From Actinospica robiniae DSM 44927 (GTDB taxonomy: Bacteria > Actinomycetota > Actinomycetes > Streptomycetales > Catenulisporaceae), in NCBI RefSeq assembly GCF_000504285.1, contig NZ_KI632511.1, forward strand, positions 62,001 to 126,000: a stretch of 64,000 nt of DNA. The letters run 5' to 3'. Within the stretch, counting starts at the first letter, position 1, and every line of letters begins with the position of its first letter. Of this stretch, positions 37,888-52,929 are shown piece by piece. Position numbers and translations under genes: made by a program. The notes below the pieces were generated by a model, which ran no database searches, was not told where the DNA came from, and was given only the letters and a program-made list of their open reading frames with translations.

Positions 37888-38007
37888 CCGCGGCTTTTGT
37901 CGGTGGTGGCGTCTAGCATGGAAGAGTACAGGGGATCGGCACGTGCGACGGGAGGGTGGTGGACGGGATGGCCGCGCAGACAGCGTCAGAATTGTGGCCG
38001 AAAGCGG

Positions 38008-38411
38008 TGCAGAAACTCCCCTCGGCGTGCGACCGGGCCACGCGATCCCGCGCAGTCTCTGAACACCGGGCGAATCCGACCGGGGCGATGCAGAACTCCA
38101 CCGCAGGCACGACCGGAGCACCGACGCCTCCGCCCGGATCGAGGACCAGGTTGGCCGGACCGGGGCGATGCAGAATCCTTCCGGATCGAACACGGCTGGC
38201 CTGCGGGATTCTGCCGCGAGCTCTGGGATCGGGGTGGATCGCACGAGGGCGGTGCAGAATCTCACATCAGGCGCGACCGAGCACCGACGCGTTCGCGCGG
38301 ATCAAGGGTCGGGATGGTCGGATCAGGGTGATGCAGAATCCTTCCGCACCGAGCACGACCGGGCCACAGGACGGGATCCGGCCCGAGCGCAGCTCACACC
38401 GGACCTCAGGG
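38008..38411. repeat. Five ~80-bp degenerate tandem units sharing TGCAGAA
   Basis: TGCAGAA begins at 38008, 38089, 38169, 38253 and 38332 (steps of 81, 80, 84, 79 bp). Units two and four are close relatives (ACGACCGGAGCACCGACGC versus GCGACCGAGCACCGACGCG), and units three and five share AATCCTTCCG. An inverted copy (GGAAGGATTCTGCATCGCC) is at 37769-37787. All reading frames across it look like chance products. Confidence 0.75.
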
Positions 38412-38820
38412 GGTGGGCTCTCTCCTCGGTCGGGCAGGCGAAGCCCGATCAGGGTTCTGCCGGGAGGTCAAGCGGCGCCCTGCAGGATTCACCATCAACG
38501 GAATCCACCGCCGCTTGACCTCCCGACAGGTCCCTGATTGCCTCCGGGGACCGACCGAGGAGAGAGCACACCCCCGGCACCCGACCACCCCGAACCCCAG
38601 CCCGCCCCGCCACGCCAGCACCCACACGACCCCGGCAATCTCTCCGAGGGAAGGGCCCGCGCCGGAGGCGAGATCTTGAAACTCCAGCCCACCCCGCCAA
38701 CGCAACGGGTGGGCGGGTTTACAGGCGAAACGGACGACGCGAAGCGGCCGCCCACACCAAGACGACCACCCCGACCCGGCAGGCCACCGAACCCCACAAG
38801 CCCCAAGCCGATCACAACTT
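38405..38820. repeat. Right ~415-bp arm of the large inverted repeat
   Basis: Inverse partner of 37293-37706. It contains its own nested palindrome (38420-38575): GTTCTGCCGGGAGGTCAAGC against GCCGCTTGACCTCCCGACAG around a 32-bp loop different from that in the left arm. Ends with CCCCAAGCCGATCACAACTT 22 bases before the redoxin stop codon. Confidence 0.85.
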
Positions 38821-38842: not shown

Positions 38843-39355
38843 TCAGTCCCCTGCCACCGCGGCCGGGGTGGGCAGTGCGAGCGGGGTGTGGCCGGCGGCC
38901 TTGATGCGGCCGTCTTCGAGCAGGTAGAACGTGGGGAAGGCGCGGCCTTGCAGCGCGGCGACGAGGTCGGTCGCGGCTTGGCCGGTAACCAGGGTGGTGA
39001 CGTCGCCGAGGGCGGCAGTCAGCTCGTCGAGATGGCCGCCTTCGCCTTGGACGGCGACGAGGATGTCGGCGGGGCCGCCGGGCAGGTTGCGGGCGTAGCC
39101 GACGGTGGCGTCGAGGGCGGACATACAGGCACTACAGTTGGTTGACATCATTGCAACGATCTTCGTGCCATGCTTTAGCGCCGCGTTGTCGGCGGGGACC
39201 TCGCCGATCGCGCTGCCGATCGGCAGCAGCTTCTCGGTGTCCCTGCCGAGACGGGAGGAGACCTCGCGCAGCCTGCGGATGACGGCGTCGACGAGGATGA
39301 GGTTGAGCACGCACAGGACGCCCACCACGATCACGGCGGCAGTGAGAATCGGCAT
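38843..39355 (-). CDS. Membrane-anchored thioredoxin-like protein (TlpA/MauD-like redoxin A)
   Basis: A 170-aa thiol-disulfide oxidoreductase. Seen: an N-terminal transmembrane anchor (PILTAAVIVVGVLCVLNLIL) followed by a charged IRRLREVSSRLGRD segment, then a thioredoxin-like fold with the redox motif CSAC in MMSTNCSACMSAL (Cys near 74 and 77) and a cis-Pro loop in RAFPTFYLLEDGRIKAAG. Its gene lies at the edge of the Cys-rich peptide locus and is divergent from the S26 peptidase A gene. Its promoter (39418-39471) has the same SARP-type design as that of the second peptide gene, so it probably shapes disulfides in these peptides. Closely similar to redoxin B at 47677. Confidence 0.9.
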   Translation of the reverse strand: MPILTAAVIVVGVLCVLNLILVDAVIRRLREVSSRLGRDTEKLLPIGSAIGEVPADNAALKHGTKIVAMMSTNCSACMSALDATVGYARNLPGGPADILVAVQGEGGHLDELTAALGDVTTLVTGQAATDLVAALQGRAFPTFYLLEDGRIKAAGHTPLALPTPAAVAGD

Positions 39356-39417
39356 GAGGAGGGATCCCTTCCACAGTGGCGCCGGCCGCGGTTGACGGCT
39401 TGCGCGGCGGGGCCATC

Positions 39418-39471
39418 AGCATGTGTCGACCGGCTACCGGGCCGTTACCAGTCCACTACCGGTCCGTTGAC
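39418..39471 (-). promoter_or_regulatory. SARP-type promoter of redoxin A
   Basis: On the minus strand, heptamers GGTAGTG, GGTAACG and GGTAGCC lie at 11-bp steps (plus-strand 39454-39460, 39443-39449, 39432-39438; a weak fourth at 39465-39471), followed by 8 bp and CATGCT (39418-39423) as a -10. An identical layout is seen at 52985-53038. The site is also within 50 bp of the S26 peptidase A start on the other strand. Confidence 0.8.
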
Positions 39472-39520
39472 GAGGGCCTTGAGCCTCAGGGCGGAGTTGC
39501 GGGAACGTGGGGGCGTGCCC

Positions 39521-40063
39521 ATGCTGCAGGCCGCGCTCGTCGGCGCGGGAATAGTCGTCTTGGCGTTAGCCGCGGTCGCCGCCACGGTTCGGCGCAGGCT
39601 GACGGTCGTGCTGGTGGACGGCGAGAGCATGAGCCCCGCTCTGTCCTCCGGGGACCAGGTGCTCGTCGCGCGCTCTAGCCGCTCCACCCGGATCTCGGTC
39701 GGCGACGTGGTGGTGTTCCGGTACGCGAGCGGGCCTGAGGAGAAGCTGATCAAGCGGGTGGCCGCCGTCCCCGGGGACCTCGTGCCGCGGAACGTGCTGG
39801 GCGCTGTGGACGCGCAGCCCGGGACGCGGGTGCCGCAGGGGTTCCTCGTCGTGATCGGCGACGGCGTGCAGAGTACGGATTCACGGGATTTCGGCTACCT
39901 GGCTGCCGATCAGGTGACCGGCGTCGTGCTGCGCCGGCTCTCCGGATCCGGGCGGCGGGTCTCGATCCCGGCCCGGGCGGACGCCCGCGCGGACACCCGG
40001 CCGGCCGCCCGCCCGGCTCACGGCGTCGCGCCCTCCGGATCGAGGCCCGACGCGGCGCCGTGA
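39521..40063 (+). CDS. S26 signal-peptidase-like protein A
   Basis: A 180-aa type I signal-peptidase-like membrane protease. Seen: N-terminal transmembrane helix (ALVGAGIVVLALAAVAATV), box B DGESMSPALSSGD with the nucleophile Ser, box D KRVAAVPGD with the general-base Lys, and box E GDGVQSTDSRDFGY. The C-terminus is Arg/Ala/Pro-rich and overlaps the convergent SARP A gene by 46 bases. In this locus it is a candidate for cutting the A-x-A leaders of the Cys-rich peptides (inference). ATG 39521 used; GTG 39515 possible. Confidence 0.88.
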   Translation: MLQAALVGAGIVVLALAAVAATVRRRLTVVLVDGESMSPALSSGDQVLVARSSRSTRISVGDVVVFRYASGPEEKLIKRVAAVPGDLVPRNVLGAVDAQPGTRVPQGFLVVIGDGVQSTDSRDFGYLAADQVTGVVLRRLSGSGRRVSIPARADARADTRPAARPAHGVAPSGSRPDAAP

Positions 40064-40827
40064 CGGATCACGGCGGCAAGCCGCTGGAGCGCCGGGCCCG
40101 GGCTGACGCCGAGTTCGTCGCGCAGGCGGGAGCGCCCGGACTCGTAGCAGGCGAGCGCGGCGTGCCGCTGGCCGAGGCGCAGGTAGGCGCGGATGAGGAT
40201 CTCCCGTGCGCGCTCGTCGAGTGGATAGGCGTCGACTTCGGGGCCGAGCTGTTCGATCGCGCGCAGCGCCCGGCCGAGCCTGAGCTCGAACCAGGCCCGA
40301 TCCTGCACCGCGATGGACCGCAGACCGTGGATCCGCACCACGTGGCGTTGCACGTGCTCGCTCGATATGTCCGCGAACGCGGGTCCGCGCCAGCATCCGA
40401 GCGCCCGGTCGAGCACCTCGCAGGCCTGCTCGATGTCGTCGGCAGCGGAGAGTGCGGCGGCGTGCCGGACCGCGGCGGTGAACTCGTCCAGGTCGCACCG
40501 GTAGTACTCGGTCTGCAGCCGATAGCCCGGCGGCCTCGTCACCAGCAGCTCCGCCGCCCGCACGGGACGCAGCAGCTTCCGCAGGGTACAGATATGCCCC
40601 TGCACCTTGAGTACCGCCGAGGGGGGCGGGCACTCGCCCCAGACCCCTTCGATGAGGCGCTCGGTCGGGACGAGGGTTCCGGCCCCGAGCAGAAGCAGCG
40701 CGAAGACGGTGCGGGTCTGCGGGCCGCGCAGCAGCAGCCGCTCGCCGCCGCGGTCGAACACCTCGAGCGGGCCGAGCACGGAGATCTGGACGGCCTCGTC
40801 CGCGGGGGCCGGGGCGTACACGCTCAT
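40018..40827 (-). CDS. SARP family transcriptional activator A (short)
   Basis: A 269-aa Streptomyces antibiotic regulatory protein: OmpR-like winged helix (VQISVLGPLEVFDRGGERLL; LVPTERLIEGVWGECPPPSA; KVQGHICTLRKLL) and a bacterial transcriptional activation domain (YYRCDLDEFTAAVRHAAAL; AYPLDERAREILIRAYLRLG; ELGVSPGPALQRL). No ATPase part. Its ATG overlaps the TGA of ABC exporter A (ATGA), so both are one operon. It is a good candidate to bind the GGTA 11-bp repeats at 39432 and 52999. Confidence 0.93.
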   Translation of the reverse strand: MSVYAPAPADEAVQISVLGPLEVFDRGGERLLLRGPQTRTVFALLLLGAGTLVPTERLIEGVWGECPPPSAVLKVQGHICTLRKLLRPVRAAELLVTRPPGYRLQTEYYRCDLDEFTAAVRHAAALSAADDIEQACEVLDRALGCWRGPAFADISSEHVQRHVVRIHGLRSIAVQDRAWFELRLGRALRAIEQLGPEVDAYPLDERAREILIRAYLRLGQRHAALACYESGRSRLRDELGVSPGPALQRLAAVIRHGAASGLDPEGATP

Positions 40828-42770
40828 CGGTGGCCTCCGCTCGAGTCGGCGGGCGTGAGCTGGTAGCCGGCGGCCTGGGTGCGGAACAGCTCCGCGTAGA
40901 CGCCGTCGGCGAGCATCAGGCTCTCGTGGTCGCCGCGTTCCACGATCCGACCCTCGCGCAGCACCACGATCTGGTCCGCCCCTCTGACCGCGGCCAGCCG
41001 ATGCGAGATCAGCAGGCTGGTCCGCCCGGCGCGCAGCTCGCCGATCCTGGTGTGGATCTGCCCTTCCGCCACGGCGTCGAGACCCGAGGAGGGTTCGTCC
41101 AGGACGAGCAGGTCGGCGTCGCGACGCAGCAGGGCGCGGGCGAGTGCGACGCGTTGCCACTGGCCGCCGGAGAGGCTGGTGCCGGGCGTCGGACGGGCCG
41201 GGCCGGGGGCGGCGGCTCGGCGGACCGAAGCGGCTCCGGCCGAGGAGGCGCCGACGGCCTGGGTCGGCCCGGACGAGGTGCCGGGCGTGGCGAACATGCG
41301 CCCGAGCATCGTGTCGTAGCCCTCGGGCAGGGCGGCCAACTCGGCGTCGATGCCCGCGGCGTTCGCGGCCGCCCGGATCCGGTCGAGGTCCGGCGGTCCG
41401 GGCTCCAGCGTCGAGACCTCGCCGACGCCGATGTTCTCGCCGGCAGTCATCGCGTAGGTCATGTAGTCCTGGAACAACACGCCCACGCGCCGACGCAGCG
41501 CCTCGGGGTCCAGCTGCCGGATATCGATGCCGTCCCACGTGATCACGCCGCGTTCGGGCTCGTACATCCGGCACAGGAGTTTGACCAGCGTGCTCTTGCC
41601 GGCTCCGTTGAGTCCGACCAGGGCGGTGGACGTGCCGGCCGGCAGGGTCAGGTCCGCGGCCCGCAGCACCCAATCGCGGTCGGCGTGATAGCGGAACCAG
41701 ACGTCGCGCACTTCGATGCCGATCCGCAGCGGTCCCGGATCGGTCGGGGCCGCGGCGACGTCGTCGGGTGGCGCGCCGACGATCCCGTGGTAGACCTCGT
41801 ATAGAGCCAGCGCCGGACCGAGGCTGGTCACCTGCATCAGCAGGCCGGCCAGCGCGGCCTGGACCCCGGCGAGTGCGGCCAGCAGCAGCGCGAGGCTTCC
41901 GACCGGAGCGTGCCCGGTGGTGATCCGGTCGGCGGCGCCGAAGAGGGCTGCCGCGGCCACGCAGGCCGTCAGCAGGGCCAGCCCGCTCTCGGTCCACACG
42001 GTCGCCCGGTCGACCGCGCGATCCTTCCGCTGGCCGGCGGTGACCTCGTTGAGCAGCCGGCGGCGCAGCAGCGGCCCGAGCCCGAAGAGCCGGATCTCCG
42101 TGCCGGCGCGCGCATCGAGCATCAGCATGCTGTAGAACAGCTGCCGCCGCATCAGGGGGCTCATTGCCCGCTGCACCGCTTCGCGGCGGCCGGACAGTCG
42201 CAGCTGCGCGATCAGGGCCGGCACGGAGGAGGCCAGCACCAGCCAGGTGACCTCCGGCGAGACGGTCCACAGGCTGACCAGATAGCCGGCAGTGGTGATC
42301 GCCGGCTGCGCCGCGCCGATCAGCCCGTGCACCAGCTGGGTGATCCCGGAGGTGATCGACTGCTGGGCCAGGCGTACCCGGTCCTGGTACGCCGGATCCT
42401 CGAGCTCGCCGATGCCGACCGGGGCGAGAACGGCGCCGAACAGCCGCGACATCCCGCGTACGGTGGCGCGCCGGCCGAGCTCGCGGTCGGCGTACCGGTC
42501 GGCGTACTGGGCCACCGCCATCACGAGTCCGACCAGGCACAGCAGGGCCAGCGGGAGGGTGAGTCCGCGCATGCCGGAGTCACTGACCATCCGGTTGACC
42601 ACGACCATGGTCAGCCAGGCGACGGCGACGGGCGAGGCGCCGCCGACGAGCGTGGTGGTAAGTTTCACCGCCAGGGCCGTCGGCGCGGCGCCGGCGAGGT
42701 CCGCGCAAGCGAGCAGCAGCAGACGTGCCCGCCCTCGGCGCGACCGCGGGTAATCAGGCTCTTGCGACAC
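40824..42770 (-). CDS. ABC exporter A (fused membrane and ATPase domains)
   Basis: A 648-aa half-transporter of the exporter type with about six transmembrane helices (to about residue 310) and a C-terminal ATPase: Walker A GLNGAGKST, Q-loop GVLFQDYMTYA, signature LSGGQWQRV, Walker B LLVLDEPSSGLD, H-loop ISHRLAAVR. Unusual: a Gly/Ser/Ala/Pro insert of about 45 aa (ATPGTSSGPTQAVGASS onward) right before the signature. There is no N-terminal C39 peptidase domain, so leader removal must be done by another enzyme. GTG 42770 with GGAAGG upstream; upstream frame residues are non-conserved. Confidence 0.92.
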   Translation of the reverse strand: MSQEPDYPRSRRGRARLLLLACADLAGAAPTALAVKLTTTLVGGASPVAVAWLTMVVVNRMVSDSGMRGLTLPLALLCLVGLVMAVAQYADRYADRELGRRATVRGMSRLFGAVLAPVGIGELEDPAYQDRVRLAQQSITSGITQLVHGLIGAAQPAITTAGYLVSLWTVSPEVTWLVLASSVPALIAQLRLSGRREAVQRAMSPLMRRQLFYSMLMLDARAGTEIRLFGLGPLLRRRLLNEVTAGQRKDRAVDRATVWTESGLALLTACVAAAALFGAADRITTGHAPVGSLALLLAALAGVQAALAGLLMQVTSLGPALALYEVYHGIVGAPPDDVAAAPTDPGPLRIGIEVRDVWFRYHADRDWVLRAADLTLPAGTSTALVGLNGAGKSTLVKLLCRMYEPERGVITWDGIDIRQLDPEALRRRVGVLFQDYMTYAMTAGENIGVGEVSTLEPGPPDLDRIRAAANAAGIDAELAALPEGYDTMLGRMFATPGTSSGPTQAVGASSAGAASVRRAAAPGPARPTPGTSLSGGQWQRVALARALLRRDADLLVLDEPSSGLDAVAEGQIHTRIGELRAGRTSLLISHRLAAVRGADQIVVLREGRIVERGDHESLMLADGVYAELFRTQAAGYQLTPADSSGGHR

Positions 42771-43114
42771 TGAGGTCCTTCCCCACACGATGGGCCGACA
42801 CGGCGAGGCCCGCACAGCAGGACGCCGCGTCAGTCGCGGTTTGACAGGGAACGAATTCGCCGCCGCGGTGGGGTGCCGAGCTCGAAAGGCGCGGTCGGCG
42901 CGGTCGGCCGGAGAGAGCGGGAATCGCGCCGTGGCCGATGCCGGCGAGCCGTCGAGCTCACGCCATCAGCACACGAATCTTCGGCCCGGATGAGGCGGGT
43001 GGCGCCTCGCCGGACCGTGCTCGCTCAGTGTCCGGCGCCCCGGCGGGTCACCGGGACGCCGCAGGTGTTGCGCGGTTCCCCGGCCGTGCGGCGGTGCGAG
43101 TCTGGAGTGACGCG
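42771..43114. other. Divergent intergenic region
   Basis: No gene and no GDRMLG-type precursor in either strand that I could find. A TTGACA lies at 42841-42846 on the plus strand without a convincing -10 at the right distance. Confidence 0.4.
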
Positions 43115-43193: not shown

Positions 43194-46100
43194 GTGGTGG
43201 CTTTGAGGTTCGGGTTGCTGGGGCCGTTGATGCTGGCCGATGGGGCTGGTGATGAAGCGGTGCCGGTGGACGGGGCGCGGCTGCGGGTGCTCTTCGCCGC
43301 TTTGCTGCTTCGGGCCAACGCGGCGGTCTCGACGGAGGAGCTCGCGGAGACCGTGTGGGACGGCGATCCCCCGCCCGGTGCCGCCCGTACGCTGCGCAGC
43401 CATGTCGGACGGCTGCGCCGGCTGCTGGGCCCCGAGGGCGAGCGGGTGGAGGCGCGGGCACCGGGCTACCTGATCCGGGTGGAGCCGCAGGAGCTGGACG
43501 TGCTCGAGTTCGAGCGGCTGTGCCGGGCCGTGGGCGCGTCGCGGCGCGAACACGCGTGGAAGGCGGCCGAGGACGCCGCCGACGAGGCGCTGCGTCTCTG
43601 GCGCGGCGATCCGCTGGTGGACGTGCCCAGCCAGCTGCTGCGCGACAACGTGGTGCCGTGGCTCGAGCGGATGCGGATCGAGCTCGTCGAGGACCGCGCC
43701 GAGGCGGGACTGAGTCTGGGCCGGCACGAGGCTCTGGTGGCGGACCTGCGCGAGACGGTGGCGGCCTACCCGCTGCGGGAACGGCTGCGCGGCCAGTTGA
43801 TGCTCGCGCTGCACCTCAGCGGGCGGCGGGCCGAGGCGCTGGCCGCGTATCAGGACGCGCGCAGGGAGCTCGTGGCGAAACTCGGGGCCGAGCCCGGCCC
43901 GCACCTGCGGGGCCTGCACGAACGGATCCTGGCCGACGAGGTCGAGGAGGTCGTGCCGTCCGATGCCGCGAAATCCGCGGGCACGCCGAAGCGGGTGACG
44001 CCGCGTCAGTTGCCCGCCGCGGCAGGGTATTTCACCGGCCGCCGCGAGGAACTGGACCGCATCATCGGCCTGGTCGACCCGCCGCGATCCGCTGACGTGC
44101 CGGGCGGCACGGTGGTGATCTCCGCCATCGACGGGATGGCCGGCGTCGGCAAGACCGCGCTGGCGGTGCACGCGGCGTACCGGCTGGCCGATGCGTTCCC
44201 CGACGGGCACCTGTTCGTCGACCTGCACGGCCATACCAAGGGTGTCCCGCCACGTGAGCCGGCCGCCGCCCTGGGCACGCTGCTCCAGGCCCTGGGTATG
44301 CCCGCGCCGCAGATCCCGGCGGATCTCGAAGCGTGCGCCGCGCTGTACCGGGACCGCCTGGCCGGATCCAGGACCCTCATCGTGCTGGACAACGCGCTGG
44401 ACGAGGCGCAGGTGCGTCCGCTGCTGCCCGGCGCACCCGGCTGCCTGGTCCTGATCACCAGCCGGCGCAGGCTCAAGGGCCTGCACGACGCCCAGGTGGT
44501 CGCCCTGGACGTGCTGCCCGAGCGGGATGCGGTCGGCCTGCTGCGGACGCTGATCTCATCGGTGGACGCCACGGCCGACGAGCCGACCCTGACCGAGATC
44601 GCCGAACTCTGCGGGCGGCTGCCCCTCGCACTGCGCATCGTCGGTGCCCTCCTGCGCCACCGTCCGGCGTGGACCGCGCACTACCTGGCCGGTCTCCTGC
44701 GCGACGAGCGCGGGCGGCTGGCCACCCTGGCCGACGGCGACCACGATCTCGCCGTCGTGCTCGACGTGTCCTATCTCGGCCTCGGTGAGCAGCATCGGCG
44801 GCTGTTACGCCGGCTGGCCCTGCTGCCCGGCCCGGACTTCGACGCCTTCACCGCCGCAGCCCTGCTCGGCTCCGACTACGTCGCCGCGGCCAGGCAGTTG
44901 GAGGACCTGGTCGATCACAGCCTGCTGATCGCGTATCTGCCCGGCCGCTATCGACTCCATGATCTGATTCGCGCCTACGCCCGAGGGCTGTCCGAGGCCG
45001 ATCCGGAGCCCGAGCGCGCCGACGCGCTGGACCGGCTGCTGCACTATTACGCGCACACCGCGCTGCGCGCCTCAGTCCCCATCGCCCGGCACCCCCGGCC
45101 CGGGCCGACGGGATCCGCGCCGATCCACTCCCCCGCCTTGTCCGACCCCGACGCGGCCCGCGCGTGGCTGCGCGCCGAGCGCGAGAACCTCGAGGCGGCG
45201 CATACGCTCGCCCGGTCCCTGGGCCTCGATCGCCACGCCGTCGCCCTGGCCGCCGGAATGGCCGAGATCCTGCAGACCGACGGCCCTCTCACCCGTTCCC
45301 TGGACCTGCACCAGGCCGCCGTCGAAACCGCCGAGCGCCGGGGCTGGGCCGCCGCGCACGCCACCGCGCTCGGTGAGCTGGGCAGCGTGCGCCGGCTGAC
45401 CGGAGACCTTTCGGGGGCCGCGCAGGCCGAGACGCGCGCCCTGGAGATCTGGCGTGCCGTCGGAGATCGCCACGGTGAGGCGGCCGCACTGACCGAGCTG
45501 GGCAAGGTGTGGTGTCTGACCGGGGATTATCCCGGCGCCACGGCAGTGCACGCGCGCGCGTTGGAGATCTACCGGGAGATCGGGCAACGACTGGGCGAGG
45601 CCGCGGCCCTGGCCGAGCTGGGCCGGGTGCGGCTGCTGACCGGGGACTACCTGGAGGCCGCCGAGAAGTGCACGCTCGGCCTCACCCTGTTCGGCGAGAT
45701 CGGCCATCCCCTGGGCGAGGCCGACTGCCTGATCGGCTTGGGTCGGGTGCGGCTGGTGATGGGCGAACTGCCCGGAGCCGGGGACGCCCTGGCCCGGGCC
45801 CTGGAGATCTACCGCGCGGTCGGACACCGCCACGGCGAAGCCAGTGCCCTGATTCTGTCCGGGAACGTGCGGCGGCTGACGGGCGATCTGTCCGGCGCCG
45901 CCGACGTGGCGGCACTGGCCCTCGAGATCTACCGGGAGATCGGCCACCACCACGGCCAGGCCGACGCCCTCGGCGATCTGGGGCGCGTGCGGGTGGCGAC
46001 GGGAGACCCGTCGGGCGCCGAGGACGCGTTCGCCAGGGCCCTGGAGATCTACCGCACGATCGGCCACCGCCACGGCCAGGGCAATGTCCTGATCGAGCTG

Positions 46101-46598
46101 GGCGGCGTGCGGCGGCTGAACGCGGACCTGTCCGGCGCCGCCGACGCCGCGACCCTCGCCCTCGAGATCTACCACGGGATCGGCCACCGCCACGGCGAAG
46201 GCTCCGCGCTGGTCGAGCTCGGGCGGGTGCAGCTGGCCGCCGGGGACCCGCCCGGCGCCCGGGACACGATCGCCCGGGCACTGGAGATCTTCAGCGAGAC
46301 CGGCAACCGCAACGCCGAGGCCTGGTCCCTGAACTTCTACGCCGCGGCCGTCGCCGCCGGCGGCGACCAGGCCGGCGCGCTCACGCTCTACGAGCGGGCC
46401 CGAGCCGTGAATCAGGAGCTGGACAAGCCCGACGACGAGGCCCTCGCCCACGAAGGGCTGGGCGAATGCCGGCTGTCTCTGGGCGAGACCGAATCAGGCC
46501 TCGATGATCTGCGCCGGGCCCTCGCCCTCTATGAACGATTGGGGATGACTCCTGACGCCGAGCGGATTCGGCAGCGGCTCGCGGCGTGCCATGCGTAG
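43194..46598 (+). CDS. AfsR-like SARP regulator B with NB-ARC ATPase and TPR repeats
   Basis: A 1134-aa three-part regulator. Seen: SARP DNA-binding and activation domains (LRFGLLGPLMLADGAGDE; RTLRSHVGRLRRLLG; KLGAEPGPHLRGLHERIL, to about 250); NB-ARC ATPase with Walker A GMAGVGKTAL (near 315), Walker B TLIVLDNALDEAQV, CLVLITSRRRL and GRLPLALRIVGALL; then about ten TPR units of 40 residues (about 715-1115) with a repeated ALEIYREIGHRHGEA pattern. Two adjacent valine/GTG codons open the frame; GTG 43194 is used. It is divergent from exporter A and lies upstream of the MauE/peptide operon, so it is a likely master activator. Confidence 0.94.
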   Translation: MVALRFGLLGPLMLADGAGDEAVPVDGARLRVLFAALLLRANAAVSTEELAETVWDGDPPPGAARTLRSHVGRLRRLLGPEGERVEARAPGYLIRVEPQELDVLEFERLCRAVGASRREHAWKAAEDAADEALRLWRGDPLVDVPSQLLRDNVVPWLERMRIELVEDRAEAGLSLGRHEALVADLRETVAAYPLRERLRGQLMLALHLSGRRAEALAAYQDARRELVAKLGAEPGPHLRGLHERILADEVEEVVPSDAAKSAGTPKRVTPRQLPAAAGYFTGRREELDRIIGLVDPPRSADVPGGTVVISAIDGMAGVGKTALAVHAAYRLADAFPDGHLFVDLHGHTKGVPPREPAAALGTLLQALGMPAPQIPADLEACAALYRDRLAGSRTLIVLDNALDEAQVRPLLPGAPGCLVLITSRRRLKGLHDAQVVALDVLPERDAVGLLRTLISSVDATADEPTLTEIAELCGRLPLALRIVGALLRHRPAWTAHYLAGLLRDERGRLATLADGDHDLAVVLDVSYLGLGEQHRRLLRRLALLPGPDFDAFTAAALLGSDYVAAARQLEDLVDHSLLIAYLPGRYRLHDLIRAYARGLSEADPEPERADALDRLLHYYAHTALRASVPIARHPRPGPTGSAPIHSPALSDPDAARAWLRAERENLEAAHTLARSLGLDRHAVALAAGMAEILQTDGPLTRSLDLHQAAVETAERRGWAAAHATALGELGSVRRLTGDLSGAAQAETRALEIWRAVGDRHGEAAALTELGKVWCLTGDYPGATAVHARALEIYREIGQRLGEAAALAELGRVRLLTGDYLEAAEKCTLGLTLFGEIGHPLGEADCLIGLGRVRLVMGELPGAGDALARALEIYRAVGHRHGEASALILSGNVRRLTGDLSGAADVAALALEIYREIGHHHGQADALGDLGRVRVATGDPSGAEDAFARALEIYRTIGHRHGQGNVLIELGGVRRLNADLSGAADAATLALEIYHGIGHRHGEGSALVELGRVQLAAGDPPGARDTIARALEIFSETGNRNAEAWSLNFYAAAVAAGGDQAGALTLYERARAVNQELDKPDDEALAHEGLGECRLSLGETESGLDDLRRALALYERLGMTPDAERIRQRLAACHA
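45360..46330 (+). repeat. 120-bp DNA-level repeats in the TPR region
   Basis: Eight successive ~120-bp units inside the SARP B gene, each with a CTGGAGATCTACCG-like and GGCCACCGCCACGG-like stretch. DNA identity between neighbours is high enough to suggest recent tandem duplication or gene conversion. Confidence 0.7.
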
Positions 46599-46732: not shown

Positions 46733-47266
46733 ATGTATCTGCTGCTCGGCACCCGCTCGCTACTCGGGTGCGTGTTCCTGGTCTCGTTCGTGGGCAAGGC
46801 GTGGGGACGCACGCGCTATGACGGCTACCTGGCCGCGACCCGCCGGCTGATGCCGCGGTGGGCGGCGTCCCGGATCCCGGCGCGCGCGGCGGCGCCCGGC
46901 ATCCTCGCCGCGGAGGCCGCCGTGCCGGTGCTGCTGGCCGTGCCCGCCTCAGTGCTCGCGGGCCTGGCACTCTCGTGTGTCCTGATGGCCGTCTTCGCCG
47001 CTGCCACCGCGGCCGCGCTGCGCCGCGGGGAGAACGCGCCGTGCCACTGCTTCGGCTTCTCGCAGCGCGAGCTCACCAGCGGGCATGTGACGCGCAACGT
47101 CGTGCTGGCAGTCCTCGCGTTGGCCGGTGTCATCGCCGGGACCTCGTCGGCCGCCCGCCCCGTCGCCGCGGTGGACGCGGCCGTGGTGGTGGCGCTGGCC
47201 GTCGTCTTCGCTCTGCTCTTCGCGATCGCCGACGACCTCGCCGACGTCTTCCGCTCCGCCGGCTGA
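46733..47266 (+). CDS. MauE/DoxX-like redox membrane protein
   Basis: A 177-aa membrane protein with about four transmembrane helices. Seen: LLGTRSLLGCVFLVSFVGKA in the first helix, AAPGILAAEAAVPVLLAVPA in the second, and the family's Cys pair in ENAPCHCFGFSQRELTSG (CxCFG). MauE helps form disulfides in the methylamine dehydrogenase small subunit, together with MauD, a CxxC redoxin (established); here it probably recycles the redoxins that oxidise the Cys-rich peptides (inference). First gene of the peptide operon; AAGGAG 6 bases before an in-frame GTG (46730) and 9 before this ATG. Confidence 0.9.
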   Translation: MYLLLGTRSLLGCVFLVSFVGKAWGRTRYDGYLAATRRLMPRWAASRIPARAAAPGILAAEAAVPVLLAVPASVLAGLALSCVLMAVFAAATAAALRRGENAPCHCFGFSQRELTSGHVTRNVVLAVLALAGVIAGTSSAARPVAAVDAAVVVALAVVFALLFAIADDLADVFRSAG

Positions 47267-47379: not shown

Positions 47380-47559
47380 ATGCTCAACCTGCTGGAGAGG
47401 ATGGGCGACCGGATGCTGGGCCGCTTCGTCCCGAGGGTGCCGGCCCACGCCACGCAGTGCAGCGCCGGAGGGTCCTGCGGGACCAACCGGGTCTGGTGCT
47501 ACTGCGAGTACCCGCCCGGAAGCAAGTACTGCGCCGCCGCCGGGGCCAAGTGCCTCTGA
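47380..47559 (+). CDS. Cys-rich precursor peptide 1 (six Cys)
   Basis: A 59-aa peptide. The leader (residues 1-24) is MLNLLERMGDRMLG then RFVPRVPAHA; it has no Sec-type hydrophobic core and ends A-x-A. The core (25-59) has Cys at 27, 33, 40, 42, 51 and 58, is rich in Gly, Ala and Tyr, and carries one WCYC motif. GDRMLG at 9-14, A-x-A at 22-24 and the first Cys at 27 are at the same positions in peptide 2 (52720), although the cores differ. AAGGAG 8 bases before the ATG. Located between the MauE gene and the redoxin, exporter and peptidase genes: the expected place for a RiPP-type precursor. Three disulfides are predicted. Not recognised from any known peptide class. Confidence 0.88.
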   Translation: MLNLLERMGDRMLGRFVPRVPAHATQCSAGGSCGTNRVWCYCEYPPGSKYCAAAGAKCL

Positions 47560-47568
47560 GTTAGGCCT

Positions 47569-47630
47569 GGCCGCAGTGCCTGCGGCCGTCCACGGAACGT
47601 CCGGGCCGGCCCCTGCGGCCGACCCGGACG
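47569..47630 (+). terminator. Two stem-loops after precursor peptide 1
   Basis: GGCCGCAG-TGC-CTGCGGCC (47569-47587) and a longer stem CGTCCGGGCCGGCC / GGCCGACCCGGACG (47598-47611 with 47617-47630). Placed between the precursor and the machinery genes, they may cut read-through so that the peptide is made in excess (inference), as in many bacteriocin operons. Confidence 0.7.
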
Positions 47631-47676
47631 GCCGATACCGACGTGAACGACAGACCCGGCCTCCGGAGGCTCCCCC

Positions 47677-48219
47677 ATGCACCCGCTGCTGATCGCCCTC
47701 GCCGTCTTCGCCTGCGCGGTGAGCGTCCTGAACCTCGTGCTCGTGCTCGGCGTCATACGGCGCCTGCGCGAGCACGCCGACCGGATCTCCCGGCTCTCCC
47801 CCGAGCCGCCGAACCCGATGCTCGCCGTCACCGAGCGGACGGATCCCTTCGACGCGGTGACCGTCGAGGGCGATCACGTCTCCCGGGCCGCGCTGTCGGG
47901 GCTGACGCTCGTCGGCGTCTTCTCGCCGAGCTGCCCGGCCTGCGAGGAGCGGCTTCCGCGATTCCTGGACTTCGCCCGCTCCTTCCCCGGCGGCCGCGAC
48001 CAGACCATCGCCATCGTGGTGGGCGAGCCGGACGAGGCGGCCGACCAGGTCGCCGTCCTGTCTCCGATAGCCCGGGTCGTGGTCGAGGACATGGAGGGCT
48101 CGATCACCAAAGCCTTGAAGGTCCGCGGTTTCCCCGCGTTCGGCATCCTCGACGACTCGGGCACCATGGTGTCCGCCGGGACGAACACGGACTGGCTCAG
48201 GATTCCGGCAGGAGTCTGA
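47677..48219 (+). CDS. Membrane-anchored thioredoxin-like redoxin B
   Basis: A 180-aa paralogue of redoxin A. Seen: N-terminal anchor (HPLLIALAVFACAVSVLNLV) followed by IRRLREHADRISRL, then the redox motif CPAC in FSPSCPACEERLPRF (Cys near 88 and 91), and GFPAFGILDDSGTMVSAG with the cis-Pro. It probably oxidises or isomerises disulfides of precursor peptide 1 on the outer face of the membrane, with MauE as its partner (inference). GGAGG lies 7-8 bases before the ATG; 8 bp separate it from exporter B. Confidence 0.9.
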   Translation: MHPLLIALAVFACAVSVLNLVLVLGVIRRLREHADRISRLSPEPPNPMLAVTERTDPFDAVTVEGDHVSRAALSGLTLVGVFSPSCPACEERLPRFLDFARSFPGGRDQTIAIVVGEPDEAADQVAVLSPIARVVVEDMEGSITKALKVRGFPAFGILDDSGTMVSAGTNTDWLRIPAGV

Positions 48220-48226
48220 GTCGGAA

Positions 48227-50140
48227 ATGCCATCGACGGCTGATTCAGAGCCCTTACGGGTGCCGAAGCTCGCCGCTCTGCGCACGGCGATTCAGGGCAC
48301 TGCGCGCGCGACAGCCGATGCAACGGCTCTCGCTTGGAGCGCCGGGCGCCATCTCGTTCTCGCCCAGGCCGCGGTCGCGTTGCTCGGCGCGGTGCTGCCG
48401 GTCGCCGCGGCCTGGCTGAGCAAGGACACGCTCGACCTGATCGCCGCGCCGGGCCGCCACAGCGGACTGCTCGCGGTCGGCTCCGCGCTGGCGGGGGCGG
48501 GACTGCTGATCGGCCTGCTCCCGCATGCCGAGCGGTACGCGCGCGAGGAGTCGCAGCGGCGCACCGGGCTGCTCGCCCAGGACCGCTTGTTCGCCGCCAT
48601 CGAAGACCTCGTCGGCCTGAGCAGGTTCGAAGACCCCGCGTTCATCGACCGGTTGCGCCTGGCGAACCAGGCCGGCGGCGTCGGGCCGGGCGCGGTGGTG
48701 ACCGGTGTGGTCGGCATCGGTCGCGGGGTACTGATGTCAGCGGGCTTCGTCATCTCACTCGCCGCGATCAGTCCGTGGGTCGCGGTGGCCGTCATGCTCT
48801 CCGCGGTGCCGGCGTTGATCGCCGAACTCGCCCTGGCCCGGCGGCGGGCCGCGACGATGTGGCGAATCGCGCCCTCGGTGCGGCGCGAACTGTTCTTCCA
48901 GCACCTGCTGACCTCCGTCCAGGCGGCCAAGGAGTTGCGACTGTTCGCGGCCGGCCGTCACCTGCGTGACCGGATGGCGGTCGAGCGCCGCTCGGCGAAC
49001 CTGGCCCAGCGGGACATGGACCGACGCGAGCTGGCCGGCCAGACCGGACTGGCCTTGGTCACCGCCGTCACGGCGGGCGCCGCGTTGCTCTGGGCCTTGG
49101 CGGCGGCCGGGCAGGGCCGGTTGACAGTCGGCGATGTATCGCTGCTGATCGGTTCCGTCGCGGGCATCCAGGGCGCGCTGTCGGGGCTGGTCACCGAGGT
49201 CTCGACCGCGCACCAGCAACTGCTGGTCTTCGGCCACTTCCGGGCCGTGCTGGCCGGCGGCCCCGATCTGCCGGTAGCCGCGAAGCCCTCCCCCACCCCC
49301 GCGCTGCGCCGTGGCATAGAACTCAGAGGCGTGTGGTTCCGCTACTCCGACGCTCATCCCTGGGCCCTGCGGGACGTGAACCTGAGCATCCCGTACGGCT
49401 CCTCGGTGGCGTTGATCGGCCGCAACGGCGCCGGGAAGAGCACCCTGGTCAAGTTGCTGTGCCGGCTCTACGACCCGCAGCGAGGCGCAGTGCTCTGGGA
49501 CGGGGTGGACGTGCGCGACCTCGACCCGGCCGAGCTGCGAGAGCGGATCGGCGCGGTGTTCCAGGACTTCATGTGCTACGACCTGACCGCCCTCGAGAAC
49601 ATCGCCCTCGGCGATCTCGGCCGCGCCACCGATCGCGAACGGATCCACGCCGCCGCACGCCGGGCCGCGATCCACGACACGGTCGCGGCGTTGCCCCGCG
49701 GCTACGACACGCCGCTGTCCCGGCTCTTTCCCGCCGACGACGACGATGACGAAAGCGGCGGGGCAGGCGGCGGGTCCGGCATGCCGCTGTCCGGCGGCCA
49801 GTGGCAGCGGCTCGCCCTGGCCCGCGCGTACCTGCGCGGCGAACGAGACGTGCTCATCCTGGACGAACCGAGCTCGGGGATCGACGCGGAAGCGGAGCAC
49901 GAGATTCACCTGCGCCTGCGCGAGCTCCGCGCCGGACGCACCAGCGTTCTGGTCTCGCACCGGCTCGGCGCCGTCCGGGACGCGGATCTGTTGGTGGTCC
50001 TGGAAAACGGGCAGATCGTGGAGCGCGGCACGCACGCCGAACTCATCGAGGCGGACGGCCGCTACGCCCGGATGTTCGAGACCCAGGCCCGGGCGTACGC
50101 GGTGGGCGCCGAATCTCCGGTGCGACAGGAGGTCGGGTGA
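48227..50140 (+). CDS. ABC exporter B (fused membrane and ATPase domains)
   Basis: A 637-aa half-transporter, paralogue of exporter A: six predicted transmembrane helices to about residue 315, ATPase with Walker A GRNGAGKST, Q-loop GAVFQDFMCYD, signature LSGGQWQRL, Walker B VLILDEPSSGID and H-loop VSHRLGAVR. It has the same kind of insert before the signature, here Asp-rich (FPADDDDDESGGAGGGSG). There is no C39 peptidase domain. Likely exports precursor peptide 1 or the processed core. One-base overlap with the next gene (TGATG). Confidence 0.93.
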   Translation: MPSTADSEPLRVPKLAALRTAIQGTARATADATALAWSAGRHLVLAQAAVALLGAVLPVAAAWLSKDTLDLIAAPGRHSGLLAVGSALAGAGLLIGLLPHAERYAREESQRRTGLLAQDRLFAAIEDLVGLSRFEDPAFIDRLRLANQAGGVGPGAVVTGVVGIGRGVLMSAGFVISLAAISPWVAVAVMLSAVPALIAELALARRRAATMWRIAPSVRRELFFQHLLTSVQAAKELRLFAAGRHLRDRMAVERRSANLAQRDMDRRELAGQTGLALVTAVTAGAALLWALAAAGQGRLTVGDVSLLIGSVAGIQGALSGLVTEVSTAHQQLLVFGHFRAVLAGGPDLPVAAKPSPTPALRRGIELRGVWFRYSDAHPWALRDVNLSIPYGSSVALIGRNGAGKSTLVKLLCRLYDPQRGAVLWDGVDVRDLDPAELRERIGAVFQDFMCYDLTALENIALGDLGRATDRERIHAAARRAAIHDTVAALPRGYDTPLSRLFPADDDDDESGGAGGGSGMPLSGGQWQRLALARAYLRGERDVLILDEPSSGIDAEAEHEIHLRLRELRAGRTSVLVSHRLGAVRDADLLVVLENGQIVERGTHAELIEADGRYARMFETQARAYAVGAESPVRQEVG

Positions 50141-50634
50141 TGCAGGGCACGTGGATGAGTATTCTGATTGCGACGTCGATCACCGTGCCGGCGCTAGCGA
50201 TCGGCTGGTATGCCGTATGGGTGCTGCGACGGAGGCTGGTGGTCGTCGACGTCCACGGAGCGAGCATGGAGCCCACGCTCCGACAGGGCGACCGCGTGTT
50301 GGTCAGACGGATACCCGCGGAATCCGTGCGCACCGGCGACATCGTCGTCATCGAGCGAAGTGGCGCCGGGGCGGCCGCGGAACAGCCGCTGCAGTTGGAT
50401 CGGCTGGATCGGCGCCGGGACTGGGCCATCAAGCGCGCGGCAGCCGTGGCCGGTGACCCGGTGCCGGCTTCGGTGGCGGCCGCGGCCGGTGTCACCCCGG
50501 GAACGGCGGTGCCCGCGGGATTCCTCGTCGTACTCGGCGACAATCCCTCCCGCAGCGCCGATTCTCGCGTCTGGGGCTATCTGCCCACGGAACGGCTGCT
50601 CGGCGTCGTCCGAAGAAGGCTGGACGGCCGATAG
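50140..50634 (+). CDS. S26 signal-peptidase-like protein B
   Basis: A 164-aa type I signal-peptidase-like protein: transmembrane helix at about 8-28, box B HGASMEPTLRQGD (Ser nucleophile), box D IKRAAAVAGDP (Lys), box E GDNPSRSADSRVWGY. Last gene of the operon MauE-peptide-redoxin-exporter-peptidase. AGGAGG is 7 bases before the ATG. Its 3' end overlaps the convergent SARP C gene by 58 bases, mirroring the peptidase A/SARP A overlap. Confidence 0.92.
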   Translation: MQGTWMSILIATSITVPALAIGWYAVWVLRRRLVVVDVHGASMEPTLRQGDRVLVRRIPAESVRTGDIVVIERSGAGAAAEQPLQLDRLDRRRDWAIKRAAAVAGDPVPASVAAAAGVTPGTAVPAGFLVVLGDNPSRSADSRVWGYLPTERLLGVVRRRLDGR

Positions 50635-52586
50635 CAGGACACGTCGACGTCCCGGGGCACGGGGCGTGTCCTCGCGCAGTGTCTTCCCGGTTCGTCCTGC
50701 TCCTCACCGCGGTCAAGCTGTTCGGCCGCGAAAAGGCGCATCAGCTCGCTGATCCGGTATCCGCCCGCGCCCGCGGGCTCGAGGAGGCGCGCGTCGGCCA
50801 GTCGACCGAGTGCGGCGGCGGCCGGCACGCGGTCGCAGCCGAGTATCCCAGCGGCCCGATCCGCATCGACGAACGTGCTCCCAGCCCGGCCCAGCCGGCC
50901 GAAAAGGCGCGCCGCCCGTTCCGCAGCGGCGCCGGCGGCGCCGGTGGCCTCGGTCAACGCGCGGTAGCTCACTGCGAAACTCGCACGCACGGACAAGCCG
51001 TCGCCGCACAGTTCGTCCAGGCGGCACCGCTCGTCCGCGAGGATCTCCGCGAAGGCGGTGACCGACCACTCCGGCCGTGCGGCCAACCGGGTGCCTGCGA
51101 TATGCAGCGCCAGCGGTAGTCCGCCGCAGGCGCGCACCAACGCATCGATCTGGTCCCGCTCGCCTTCCGTGCGCTGCTCGCCGCACAACGCGGCCAGCAA
51201 CCGCCGCGACTCGGCCAGGGGAAGCGGCGCCAGGTCGATCCGCATCGCCGAACCGAAGGTGGCCAACACGGACCTGCTGGTGATCAGGACGGGACACGGC
51301 GCCAACGCCTGTATCAGGGGGCTCACTTGCTCGGCGCTCGCCGCGTTGTCCAACACGACCAAGGGCTCGGCCCCTGCGGCCTCCCCGCGCAGTTCGCGCA
51401 GCCGGCGCAGCGCCACGGCCGGAGCCAGCGGCGCTCGGCCCATGGTCGTGCCACGCAGATCGAGCACGATGCAGCGCGCGTGCCCCAGCCCGTCGAGCAC
51501 GCGCGCCACTTTCGCCGCAAGCGCGGACTTCCCGATCCCGGCGCCGCCACTGATCACGGCGAGGCGCTGCGCGGCCGGAGCGTGCGGCGCGCTCGGAGCA
51601 GCCAGATGGTCGAGCAGGCGGGCCAGTTCATCCGCCCTTCCCACGAACAGCTCGTTCGCCGCGTCCTGCCCGGTACCGTTTATCTTTTCGGCCTGCTCAG
51701 CCACGACCGGTGTGAGTATCGCGCGCTCGCGCAACGACACAGAATGCTGAGACGCGAACCACGCCCCGTCCCTGGAAGCGGCGTGCAGCAACGGATCCCG
51801 GTGCAGGACGCGCCGGTAGAGCTCTGTCATCTCCGGCCCCGGCGCTATGCCGAGCTCCCGGCGCAAGACCTGCCGCGCCTGTTCGAAGGCTGATATGGCT
51901 GCCGCCGGATCCCCGCAACGGTAGTTCGCGACAATCAGTTGACACCAGAATCGCTCGCGTGTCGGGTGGGCGACGGCGAGCTCGTGCAGTCGGCCGACGA
52001 GCCGCTCGTGTTCGCCCAGCGCCAGCCGGGCCTGCATGAGGTGCTCCGTCGCACGGTGGCGCTGGTCCTCGAGCGCGGCCAGGCGGCCGGCAAGTCCCTG
52101 CGTCCGCGGCACGTCCTCGGCCGCCGCGCCACGCCAGAGACCCAGGGCGGACTCCAGGTACCCGGCCGCCGCAGCGGGATCGCCGGCCGACAACTCGAGC
52201 CCGCGACGCATCCGCTGGGCGAAGACGCAGATGTCCGACTCCTCGGCCGCCACCTGCAGCCGGTACCCCGAGGGCGTCGCCGTCAGCCGTCGTGCGCCGG
52301 CCGGCCCGAGCGCGCCGTCCAGAGCGGAACGCAGCCGACAGGCGTACGTGCGCAGATTCGCCGTCGCCGACGCCGGCGGCCGCTCCCAGATCAGCTCGGC
52401 CAGCCGCTCCAGCGTCACCACCCGATTGGCTTCGAGCAGCAGCACCGTGAGCAGCGCTTGCGGCCGGGCCCCCTTGATCCGGGTCGCGCAGTCCTCGTGC
52501 CACACCTGGACCGGCCCGAGAACGGCGATCCGCGTCCGTGCGGCCTCGGCCCCCGCGAGGTCCGCTGCCGATCGGGCCTTTTCCAT
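50577..52586 (-). CDS. SARP regulator C with NB-ARC ATPase domain
   Basis: A 669-aa AfsR-type regulator without TPRs: SARP winged helix (IAVLGPVQVWHEDCATRIKG; LERLAELIWERPPASATANL; YACRLRSALDGAL), activation domain (CVFAQRMRRGLELSAG; RRELGIAPGPEMTEL), then NB-ARC with Walker A ISGGAGIGKSALAA, LVVLDNAASAEQV, PVLITSRSVLATFG and CGGLPLALHIAGTRL. The C-terminal 30 residues, Arg/Ser-rich, come from the overlap with the peptidase gene. It follows precursor peptide 2 on the same strand beyond a strong hairpin. Confidence 0.93.
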   Translation of the reverse strand: MEKARSAADLAGAEAARTRIAVLGPVQVWHEDCATRIKGARPQALLTVLLLEANRVVTLERLAELIWERPPASATANLRTYACRLRSALDGALGPAGARRLTATPSGYRLQVAAEESDICVFAQRMRRGLELSAGDPAAAAGYLESALGLWRGAAAEDVPRTQGLAGRLAALEDQRHRATEHLMQARLALGEHERLVGRLHELAVAHPTRERFWCQLIVANYRCGDPAAAISAFEQARQVLRRELGIAPGPEMTELYRRVLHRDPLLHAASRDGAWFASQHSVSLRERAILTPVVAEQAEKINGTGQDAANELFVGRADELARLLDHLAAPSAPHAPAAQRLAVISGGAGIGKSALAAKVARVLDGLGHARCIVLDLRGTTMGRAPLAPAVALRRLRELRGEAAGAEPLVVLDNAASAEQVSPLIQALAPCPVLITSRSVLATFGSAMRIDLAPLPLAESRRLLAALCGEQRTEGERDQIDALVRACGGLPLALHIAGTRLAARPEWSVTAFAEILADERCRLDELCGDGLSVRASFAVSYRALTEATGAAGAAAERAARLFGRLGRAGSTFVDADRAAGILGCDRVPAAAALGRLADARLLEPAGAGGYRISELMRLFAAEQLDRGEEQDEPGRHCARTRPVPRDVDVSCYRPSSLLRTTPSSRSVGR

Positions 52587-52647
52587 GCGCCTCCTCGCGG
52601 CTGGACGTGGGCGGTCTGCGGCTCACGGCATCGGGGTCCCGGATCGC

Positions 52648-52686
52648 GGCATGTTGCCGCCGAGGCGAGCTCGGCGGCAACATGCC
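52648..52686 (-). terminator. Hairpin after precursor peptide 2
   Basis: GGCATGTTGCCGCCGA (52648-52663) pairs perfectly with TCGGCGGCAACATGCC (52671-52686) around a 7-base loop. It lies 34 bases beyond the peptide 2 stop codon and before SARP C, a layout that favours high peptide expression with limited read-through. Confidence 0.82.
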
Positions 52687-52719
52687 CGGCCACAGGGCCG
52701 GGAGAGAGCGGGGAGGCTC

Positions 52720-52929
52720 TCAGTTCGAGCAGGCGCTGTGCGTCCAGCAGAGAACTGCGGCCGCGTAGCAGTCGGTCTCGCAGATGTACTCACAGCCGGT
52801 CACGCCGTGGGAGTAGCAGCTCGTGGCGCAGGTCGGTCCGGAATGCGGGCAGTACACCGCCGCGGCGACTTCCTTGCCCAACAGCGCGCCGAGCATACGG
52901 TCACCGAACGAGCGCATGGCGGTCGTCAT
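52720..52929 (-). CDS. Cys-rich precursor peptide 2 (eight Cys)
   Basis: A 69-aa peptide. Leader 1-24: MTTAMRSFGDRMLG then ALLGKEVAAA, with GDRMLG at 9-14 and A-x-A at 22-24 exactly as in peptide 1. Core 25-69 with Cys at 27, 34, 38, 46, 50, 54, 61 and 67, rich in Tyr, Ala, Thr, His and Ser and nearly lacking Lys/Arg; four disulfides are predicted. AGGAGG 8-9 bases before the ATG. Driven by a SARP-type promoter (52985-53038) and followed by a strong hairpin. Not recognised from any known class. Confidence 0.87.
   Translation of the reverse strand: MTTAMRSFGDRMLGALLGKEVAAAVYCPHSGPTCATSCYSHGVTGCEYICETDCYAAAVLCWTHSACSN

Follow-up and report, generated by a model that had tools for sequence, protein, structure and literature searches.

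Introduction

The decRiPPter work reported three MauE-containing candidate families in Streptomyces, one of them also with mauD; in the part of that text available, each family has a predicted precursor with at least eight Cys residues, and mauE is proposed to modify the precursor (PMC7794033). The same part pairs MauE with MauD for the small multi-disulfide subunit of methylamine dehydrogenase (PMC7794033). Here we describe two Cys-rich precursor peptides and the gene set beside them from a 64,000-nucleotide stretch of Actinospica robiniae DSM 44927 (contig NZ_KI632511.1, positions 62,001 to 126,000), which is called the window throughout. The set includes a MauE-like protein and a MauD-like redoxin, MauD being a membrane-anchored thioredoxin-fold protein.

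Other described systems share parts of this arrangement. Actifensin has a leader of 32 residues, a conserved G-x-E ahead of the mature peptide, and a six-Cys core with a defensin-like Cys pattern, whose disulfides were inferred from a 6 Da mass difference, as far as the accessible text of that paper goes (PMC6989792). For bactofencin A, a Ligilactobacillus salivarius bacteriocin with an immunity protein, a thioredoxin-domain protein is hypothesised to assist in forming the disulfides in the excerpted text (PMC7616364). In a review of leader proteases of ribosomally synthesized and post-translationally modified peptides (RiPPs), a term search found neither S26 nor signal peptidase (PMC10885120).

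We consider it likely that the window holds one of seven loci in this genome for SARP-controlled, leader-guided, disulfide-rich secreted peptides. The evidence comes from a leader that recurs in precursors from many actinobacterial genomes, from the number of Cys residues in the cores, and from four partner genes that accompany the peptides: MauE, a CxxC redoxin, an ABC half-transporter and an S26-family protease.

Results

Two precursor peptides share one leader plan

Peptide 1 (P0001; 47380..47559, + strand) has 59 residues, with a leader at 1-24 and a core at 25-59 that contains six Cys. Peptide 2 (P0002; 52720..52929, - strand) has 69 residues, with a leader at 1-24 and a core at 25-69 that contains eight. 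An earlier reading of this DNA, made from the letters alone (the sequence-only reading), had noticed that the two peptides share GDRMLG at residues 9-14, A-x-A at 22-24 and a first Cys at 27, and we verified each of these features in both. The P0002 leader has no Pro at residue 18. Purine-rich stretches that resemble ribosome sites lie 5' of both genes.

We scored the leaders with a position-specific matrix of 24 columns, made from 44 unique leaders, none of which came from the A. robiniae genome; the second precursor of locus L134 was excluded because its spacing did not fit. P0001 scored 40.4 bits and P0002 35.5 bits, ranking first and second among the 1,148 small open reading frame (ORF) starts of the window. 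The runners-up were a later in-frame start of P0002 at 30.0 bits and, as the next unrelated ORF, one at 7.1 bits. None of 5,740 shuffled ORFs reached the P0002 score. The leader plan shared by the two peptides is not due to chance.

A peptide profile matched P0001 at 60 bits and P0002 at 44.1 bits, both sequences being part of that profile. Single-sequence searches with either peptide returned weak matches only, beyond the peptides themselves, and the family emerged through a redoxin search first and a peptide profile second. The structure model of P0001 had a predicted local distance difference test (pLDDT) score of 48.8, too low for use. The P0002 core also gave a weak Pfam match to the pollen allergen Ole e 6 (E 0.0089, below the cut-off), which probably reflects Cys spacing alone.

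A constant leader precedes cores with 13 Cys frameworks

Altogether, 89 distinct precursors were collected. Counted back from the end of the leader, Pro at -7 and Ala at -3 are each present in 85 of the 89, and 82 have Asp at -15; the collection method itself demanded Ala at -1. The leader ends in A-x-A, not double-Gly. Its middle is charged, with the Asp mostly followed by Arg, and the absence of a Sec-type hydrophobic core, already stated in the sequence-only reading, was evident on direct inspection of the sequences.

The cores carry six Cys in 64 precursors, eight in 22, four in two and seven in one. The number is therefore even in 88 of 89, a tally in which the precursors are mutually related and so not independent. 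As a control, we took 80 small ORFs from the loci that are not precursors and contain four or more Cys; the number was even in 51 and odd in 29 (ORFs with a ribosome site, one count per stop codon, A. robiniae precursors removed); within the A. robiniae loci the control gave 8 even and 10 odd. The Cys residues fall into 13 frameworks, and C-C-CC-C-C, which we take to be the framework of knottins or inhibitor cystine knots, accounts for 25 precursors. The combination of a conserved leader and a hypervariable Cys core, from which a processed family had been proposed for P0001 and P0002, is borne out by these 89 precursors, their 13 frameworks and their nearly always even Cys number.

When 25 precursors were scanned against Pfam and NCBIfam, there was no family match, and weak unrelated matches only. 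Precursor profiles A3 and A1 matched no PDB sequence at E up to 1. A Microbispora precursor was modeled with a pLDDT of 75 and a predicted template modeling (pTM) score of 0.44; in it, the leader is helical and the core has two strands. This model had no Foldseek match at E <= 0.001 and a VIA-align Z of at most 2.7, which is uninformative either way. Kinship with MauA, prompted by the core of the L051 precursor, was dropped after the same 25 precursors gave no PF02975 match at E up to 0.1. The earlier statement that no class with this leader was known holds for Pfam and NCBIfam, and it has to be narrowed on account of the decRiPPter MauE candidates and of the C-terminal half of the leader, which is Ni-SOD-like (see below).

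Four partner genes accompany the peptides

The leader had been expected to recur in other actinobacterial genomes beside MauE, redoxin, S26 and exporter genes, and it does. A redoxin search gave matches in 20 of 296 class genomes, A. robiniae included; 19 of the 20 loci taken from it hold a precursor, and 17 of those 19 have all four partners. Peptide profile A1, built from 25 of the 31 precursors then known, matched in 21 of 394 class genomes and 36 of 293 order genomes, with A. robiniae counted in both.

A fair judgement of co-occurrence requires loci retrieved by the profile that had no part in its construction. In 18 of 20 such loci (L122-L141, part of which the redoxin search also found), MauE, redoxin, ABC transporter and S26 protease genes all lie beside the peptide, the exceptions being L133 and L137. 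Eleven of these loci (L122-L132) come from genomes outside the redoxin-search matches, and all eleven have the four partners. Among 18 further loci from the order search (L190-L207), which were hand-picked from 55 places, nine of them in A. robiniae itself, 17 have all four partners and L199 is without S26. Several low-scoring rows of the order search are possibly false, being interrupted by a stop or located within long open frames.

The partners are uniform in their motifs. MauE homologues have CxCF in 44 of 45 cases and CRCL in the remaining one, and the redoxins have CxxC in 45 of 45. By eye, the redoxins show a membrane segment and, after it, a basic stretch similar to RRLR, with exact RRLR in 26 of 45. 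SARP regulators are found nearby in 12 of 20, 5 of 7 and 15 of 19 loci in three locus sets. Besides these five, every gene family is confined to 5 of 46 loci at most (blastp at 1e-8, counting ORFs of 70 or more codons up to 7 kb from the peptides), and therefore no other modifying enzyme is constant. What the loci have in common is redox chemistry, one protease and one exporter.

A membrane-protein-like frame of 955 codons (L067:8326-11193) adjoins the peptide set in 5 of the 46 loci. Named carriers are Microbispora, with 16 of 19 loci, together with Streptosporangium carneum, Nonomuraea deserti and Phytomonospora endophytica. Because they were found with a narrow profile subset (A2), they represent near relatives only. 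A plasmid search with MauE gave no match.

Seven loci in the A. robiniae genome

The genome is assembled as one contig of 9.9 Mb. The window redoxin has six paralogues there, one of them inside the window, and nine precursors were found, seven of them outside the window (L047, L048, L049, two in L050, L051 and L052). These seven came from listing small Cys-rich ORFs in the DNA around the redoxin paralogues, and a profile search returned the same nine. In six of the seven loci (the window and L047-L052), MauE, redoxin, ABC transporter and S26 genes all lie within 8 kb of the peptide. These loci contain six of the eight MauE genes of the genome and seven of the nine S26 genes, with one S26 gene belonging to a second gene set of the window; the remaining two S26 genes are adjacent, ordinary signal peptidases. 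The sequence-only reading had overlooked both the seven further members and this second, partial set at 38.8-42.8 kb. One of the outlying genes, L052:9523-9735 (~8.41 Mb in the genome), is a third copy of a precursor that begins with MANPF, 3.9 Mb from its two paralogues.

The leader is frozen in recent duplicates

The three MANPF paralogues (two in L050 and one in L052) were compared by their rates of nonsynonymous (dN) and synonymous (dS) change. The leader has a dN of 0 and a dS of 0.19-0.35, and the core has a dN of 0.36-0.44 against a dS of 0.29-0.34; amino-acid change in leader versus core gave Fisher p values of 1e-6 and 2e-7, with two comparisons tested. In six Microbispora pairs, the leader dN is 0-0.02 and the core dN 0.013-0.222, with the core mostly faster than the leader. 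Fast core evolution after duplication is thus documented in one case, and a general arms race may lie behind it.

Similarity between the C-terminal leader half and the Ni-SOD propeptide

In genus g4, which we take as Streptomyces, the propeptide of nickel superoxide dismutase (Ni-SOD) is MLSRLFAPKVKVSA, or a close variant, before HC; in A. robiniae it is MRIFAAKTTASA. We scored Ni-SOD propeptides with the last 12 columns of the leader matrix, using 30,029 12-mers that end in [AV]-x-A as the control. Three g4 forms scored 13.5, 12.3 and 6.3 bits, values matched by 4, 15 and 132 of the 30,029 controls, with the commonest form being the one that just four controls equal. Judged by these scores, the C-terminal half of the leader appears to resemble the Ni-SOD propeptide.

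Of 45 S26 matches from the clusters, 42 have an SM motif followed in each by a [KR]R motif (K and R pooled), as sought for the Ser-Lys dyad of family S26, and the three without SM were dropped. A cluster S26 model scored the Ni-SOD protease SodX of L087-L090 at 75-80 bits, twelve g4 SodX at 54.5-66.8 bits and two LepB at 48.3 and 56.4 bits; the model contained the four SodX of L087-L090, which biases their scores, and the twelve g4 SodX lay outside it. A close relationship between the cluster S26 proteases and SodX was considered and set aside: because the tree gives no placement and the model scores are biased, we claim a resemblance only. We read the cluster S26 and the Ni-SOD protease as probably sharing one mode of cleavage, in which a short non-Sec leader is cut behind A-x-A, and common descent of the two is possible.

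Topology was assessed by hydropathy and net charge, with S26 start codons chosen by a ribosome-site rule. An N-terminal membrane segment is present in 38 of the 42 cluster S26 proteases, and the C-terminal side of this segment is more positive in 26, less positive in 5 and equal in 7. By the positive-inside rule, this is suggestive of a cytoplasmic active site. The two ordinary signal peptidases of A. robiniae have, in their sequences, a basic stretch before the membrane segment. MauD proteins, which are considered periplasmic, have the same Arg-rich pattern, and the rule may therefore not hold in this case.

Partner genes and a second gene set in the window

Upstream of mauE lies a SARP/AfsR-type regulator with TPR repeats (43194..46598, + strand; PF03704 at 132.8 bits, with TPR matches). 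This regulator also scored 637 bits against an NCBIfam model of a TPR protein of cyclophane RiPPs, below the cut-off of 1125. It is followed by the MauE-like membrane protein (46733..47266, + strand; PF07291 at 74.5 bits, gathering cut-off 27), which has a CHCF motif and is the presumed disulfide-generating partner. Beyond P0001 comes the membrane-anchored thioredoxin-fold (MauD-like) protein with CPAC (47677..48219, + strand); its AhpC-TSA and Redoxin matches are both below cut-off, and it scored 18.8 bits against the MauD model TIGR02661, short of the cut-off of 188.6. The ABC exporter half-transporter, with membrane and ATPase domains (48227..50140, + strand), matches PF00005 at 99.8 bits and PF00664 at 15.4 bits, the latter below cut-off, and there is no peptidase C39 among its Pfam matches. 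The S26-family protease with an N-terminal membrane segment (50140..50634, + strand; PF10502 at 71.3 bits) is the presumed leader peptidase. It scored 71.3 bits against the signal peptidase I model TIGR02227 (cut-off 47) and 43.3 bits against the Ni-SOD protease model TIGR02754 (cut-off 63.25). A SARP (BTAD) regulator with an NB-ARC-like ATPase region lies on the opposite strand (50577..52586, - strand; PF03704 at 130.9 bits, NB-ARC below cut-off), and P0002 is beside it.

The second, partial gene set (38843-42773) comprises a redoxin, an S26 protease, a SARP and an ABC exporter; neither MauE nor a precursor was detected in it. The redoxin (38843..39355, - strand) belongs to the same family, has CSAC and scored 141 bits against the cluster redoxin model, with no NCBIfam match at 1e-3. 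The second S26 protease (39521..40063, + strand) scored 82.3 bits against TIGR02227 (cut-off 47) and 45.7 bits against TIGR02754 (cut-off 63.25). The third SARP regulator of the window, of BTAD type (40018..40827, - strand), had AfsR/SARP NCBIfam matches of 125.5 and 108.3 bits, under cut-off. The second ABC exporter (40824..42773, - strand; start codon uncertain) is of the same family as the first and scored 756 bits against the cluster ABC model. P0002, at 52.7 kb, may be served by either of the two sets. At 37500-38612, the window has two 209-nucleotide arms that are 88% complementary and 695 nucleotides apart, with inner direct repeats at a spacing of ~80 nucleotides.

Discussion

A proposed pathway and its rivals

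Taken together, the leader, the Cys numbers and the partner genes suggest the following pathway. SARP regulators would switch the locus on, and the ribosome would then make a precursor whose two parts are visible in the sequence, namely a conserved leader, some 24 residues long, and a hypervariable core in which the number of Cys is nearly always even. Judging from co-occurrence and family function, MauE and the membrane-anchored CxxC redoxin could oxidise the core to disulfides. Like the Ni-SOD protease, whose propeptide substrate is similar, the S26 protease would cleave behind the A-x-A at -3/-1, and the ABC half-transporter would export the peptide. The mature peptides are most likely extracellular antagonists, such as antibiotics or inhibitors, because the core of recent duplicates outpaces silent sites while the leader is frozen.

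Several observations weigh against this interpretation. The precursor copy in L052 is an orphan with no MauE, redoxin or S26 within 8 kb, and the other two MauE genes of the genome (L188 and L189) have no leader-like peptide in their regions. Each of L065, L133, L137 and L199 is without the peptide or without a partner, and many loci come from few genera, so the locus counts are not independent draws. The precursor at L203 (7668-7850), with seven core Cys, is the sole odd one; possible explanations are dimer formation, an error in the sequence or a departure from the disulfide rule. Core dN exceeds dS in one paralogue trio only and is below dS (0.048-0.427) in the six Microbispora pairs. The resemblance to Ni-SOD is uneven: the SodN leader of A. 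robiniae itself scored 7.4 bits (88 of 30,029 controls as high), and those of genomes G004 and G003 scored 3.0 bits (448 of 30,029) and -16.9 bits (23,052 of 30,029). For the window S26 proteases, the signal peptidase I model is a better fit than that of the Ni-SOD protease, and the S26 tree gives no placement of the cluster enzymes. Finally, no immunity gene of 70 or more codons recurs among the 46 loci, a survey that a smaller one would escape.

The strongest alternative is that these are Sec-exported Cys-rich peptides with an odd, short signal peptide, cut by a signal peptidase and oxidised by MauE and the redoxin outside the cytoplasm, and that the ABC transporter serves immunity or some other export. 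The A-x-A at the presumed cut site and the signal peptidase I models, which are the best match of the S26 proteases, speak for this explanation, as does the presumed action of MauE and MauD outside the membrane in the methylamine dehydrogenase system. We nevertheless regard Sec export as unlikely. The leader has no hydrophobic core and places Asp at -15, mostly followed by Arg, and the two ordinary signal peptidases elsewhere in the genome would make a dedicated one redundant.

Conserved leaders with variable cores are equally the hallmarks of conventional RiPPs, and many cores contain Ser and Thr in addition to Cys. The cores might thus be modified beyond disulfides, with thioethers or other rings, and the redox pair might merely protect or reduce thiols. 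We judge this somewhat less probable again, given that no modifying enzyme other than the redox pair occurs in more than 5 of 46 loci and that the Cys number is even in 88 of 89 precursors. A third possibility, slightly further down our scale, is that of metal-handling peptides, akin to metallothioneins or the nickel hook, that borrowed their leader and S26 protease from Ni-SOD maturation. The similarity of the leader to the Ni-SOD propeptide and the partial match of S26 to the Ni-SOD protease fit such an origin; a dedicated CxxC redoxin and MauE indicate oxidised, not metal-bound, thiols, and the Cys spacing is highly variable, with 13 frameworks. That the loci are a remnant of methylamine dehydrogenase maturation, with MauE and MauD acting on a MauA-like subunit, is suggested by the presence of MauE and MauD-like genes and can hardly be true, as none of the 25 scanned precursors matches PF02975 (MauA) at E up to 0.1 and none of 41 genomes does, a search in which no control genome matched either, so that absence is not shown.

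Beyond leader-guided, disulfide-rich secreted peptides as such, we tentatively consider a bolder model, which is possible though on balance improbable. One constant leader and a generic machine of MauE, redoxin, S26 and ABC transporter would form a platform for diverse disulfide frameworks, much as in venom peptide superfamilies, with all chemistry at the cytoplasmic face before export. The chemistry is placed inside because the leader is like the cytosolic Ni-SOD propeptide and because a basic stretch mostly follows the membrane segment of S26 and redoxin. If this is true, disulfide formation and signal-peptidase-type cleavage take place on the inner side of the membrane.

Soil actinobacteria carry many copies of a gene set that appears, from its sequence, to make disulfide-stapled peptides with the same tag and a variable active part. 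The family has a searchable signature, consisting of a leader with D-15, P-7 and A-x-A together with four partner genes, and it reaches up to nine precursors per genome and 13 Cys frameworks overall. In one recent duplicate set, the combination of a frozen leader and a fast core speaks for a function in conflict. Should the machine accept as wide a range of substrates as the diversity of the cores suggests, bacteria would offer a way to produce genetically encoded peptides with several disulfides, a class of scaffold much in demand for drugs.

Comparison with known systems

We rate the family as a leader-guided peptide class, which is a known kind, with disulfides as the only evident chemistry here. 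As defined by its leader, even Cys number, S26 link and spread, it was not found among the matches listed from the open-licence literature, subscription papers being outside the scope of that search, and it may later have been named elsewhere.

Ni-SOD maturation is similar in its short non-Sec leader, which in g4 has P-7 and A-1, and in having an S26-type protease gene adjoining sodN. The differences are that its product is an enzyme and that the SodX proteins of L087-L090 have no clear membrane segment; moreover, we know of no MauE, redoxin or exporter in Ni-SOD maturation. The substrate of methylamine dehydrogenase maturation is likewise an enzyme subunit. Peptidase-C39 (double-Gly) bacteriocins differ as well, in that the window ABC transporter has no C39 domain and the leaders have A-3 in 85 of 89 cases.

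Actifensin shares an actinobacterial leader with a six-Cys core, ABC transporter genes and several copies per locus, whereas its locus has a subtilisin-like protease and a LuxR regulator, and MauE, redoxin and S26 are not named in the accessible text (PMC6989792). The leader of about 24 residues ending in A-x-A and the 13 frameworks also set the present family apart from actifensin and from defensin-like peptides. Bactofencin A has a small gene set with a thioredoxin-domain protein, and the excerpted text names neither MauE nor S26 (PMC7616364).

Among the literature matches listed, the decRiPPter paper is, on the part of it available, the only close prior art (PMC7794033). Like the decRiPPter families, loci L129, L130 and L140 have mauE beside a Cys-rich precursor in presumed Streptomyces (g4, family f2). 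The criterion of at least eight Cys does not describe the present family, however, as 22 of 89 precursors have eight core Cys and 64 have six, and the available part of the decRiPPter text gives no leader and no mechanism (PMC7794033). Compared with the description of the decRiPPter families, the family reported here has a defined leader, 89 precursors, a near-constant S26 protease and ABC transporter, and an occurrence in several families.

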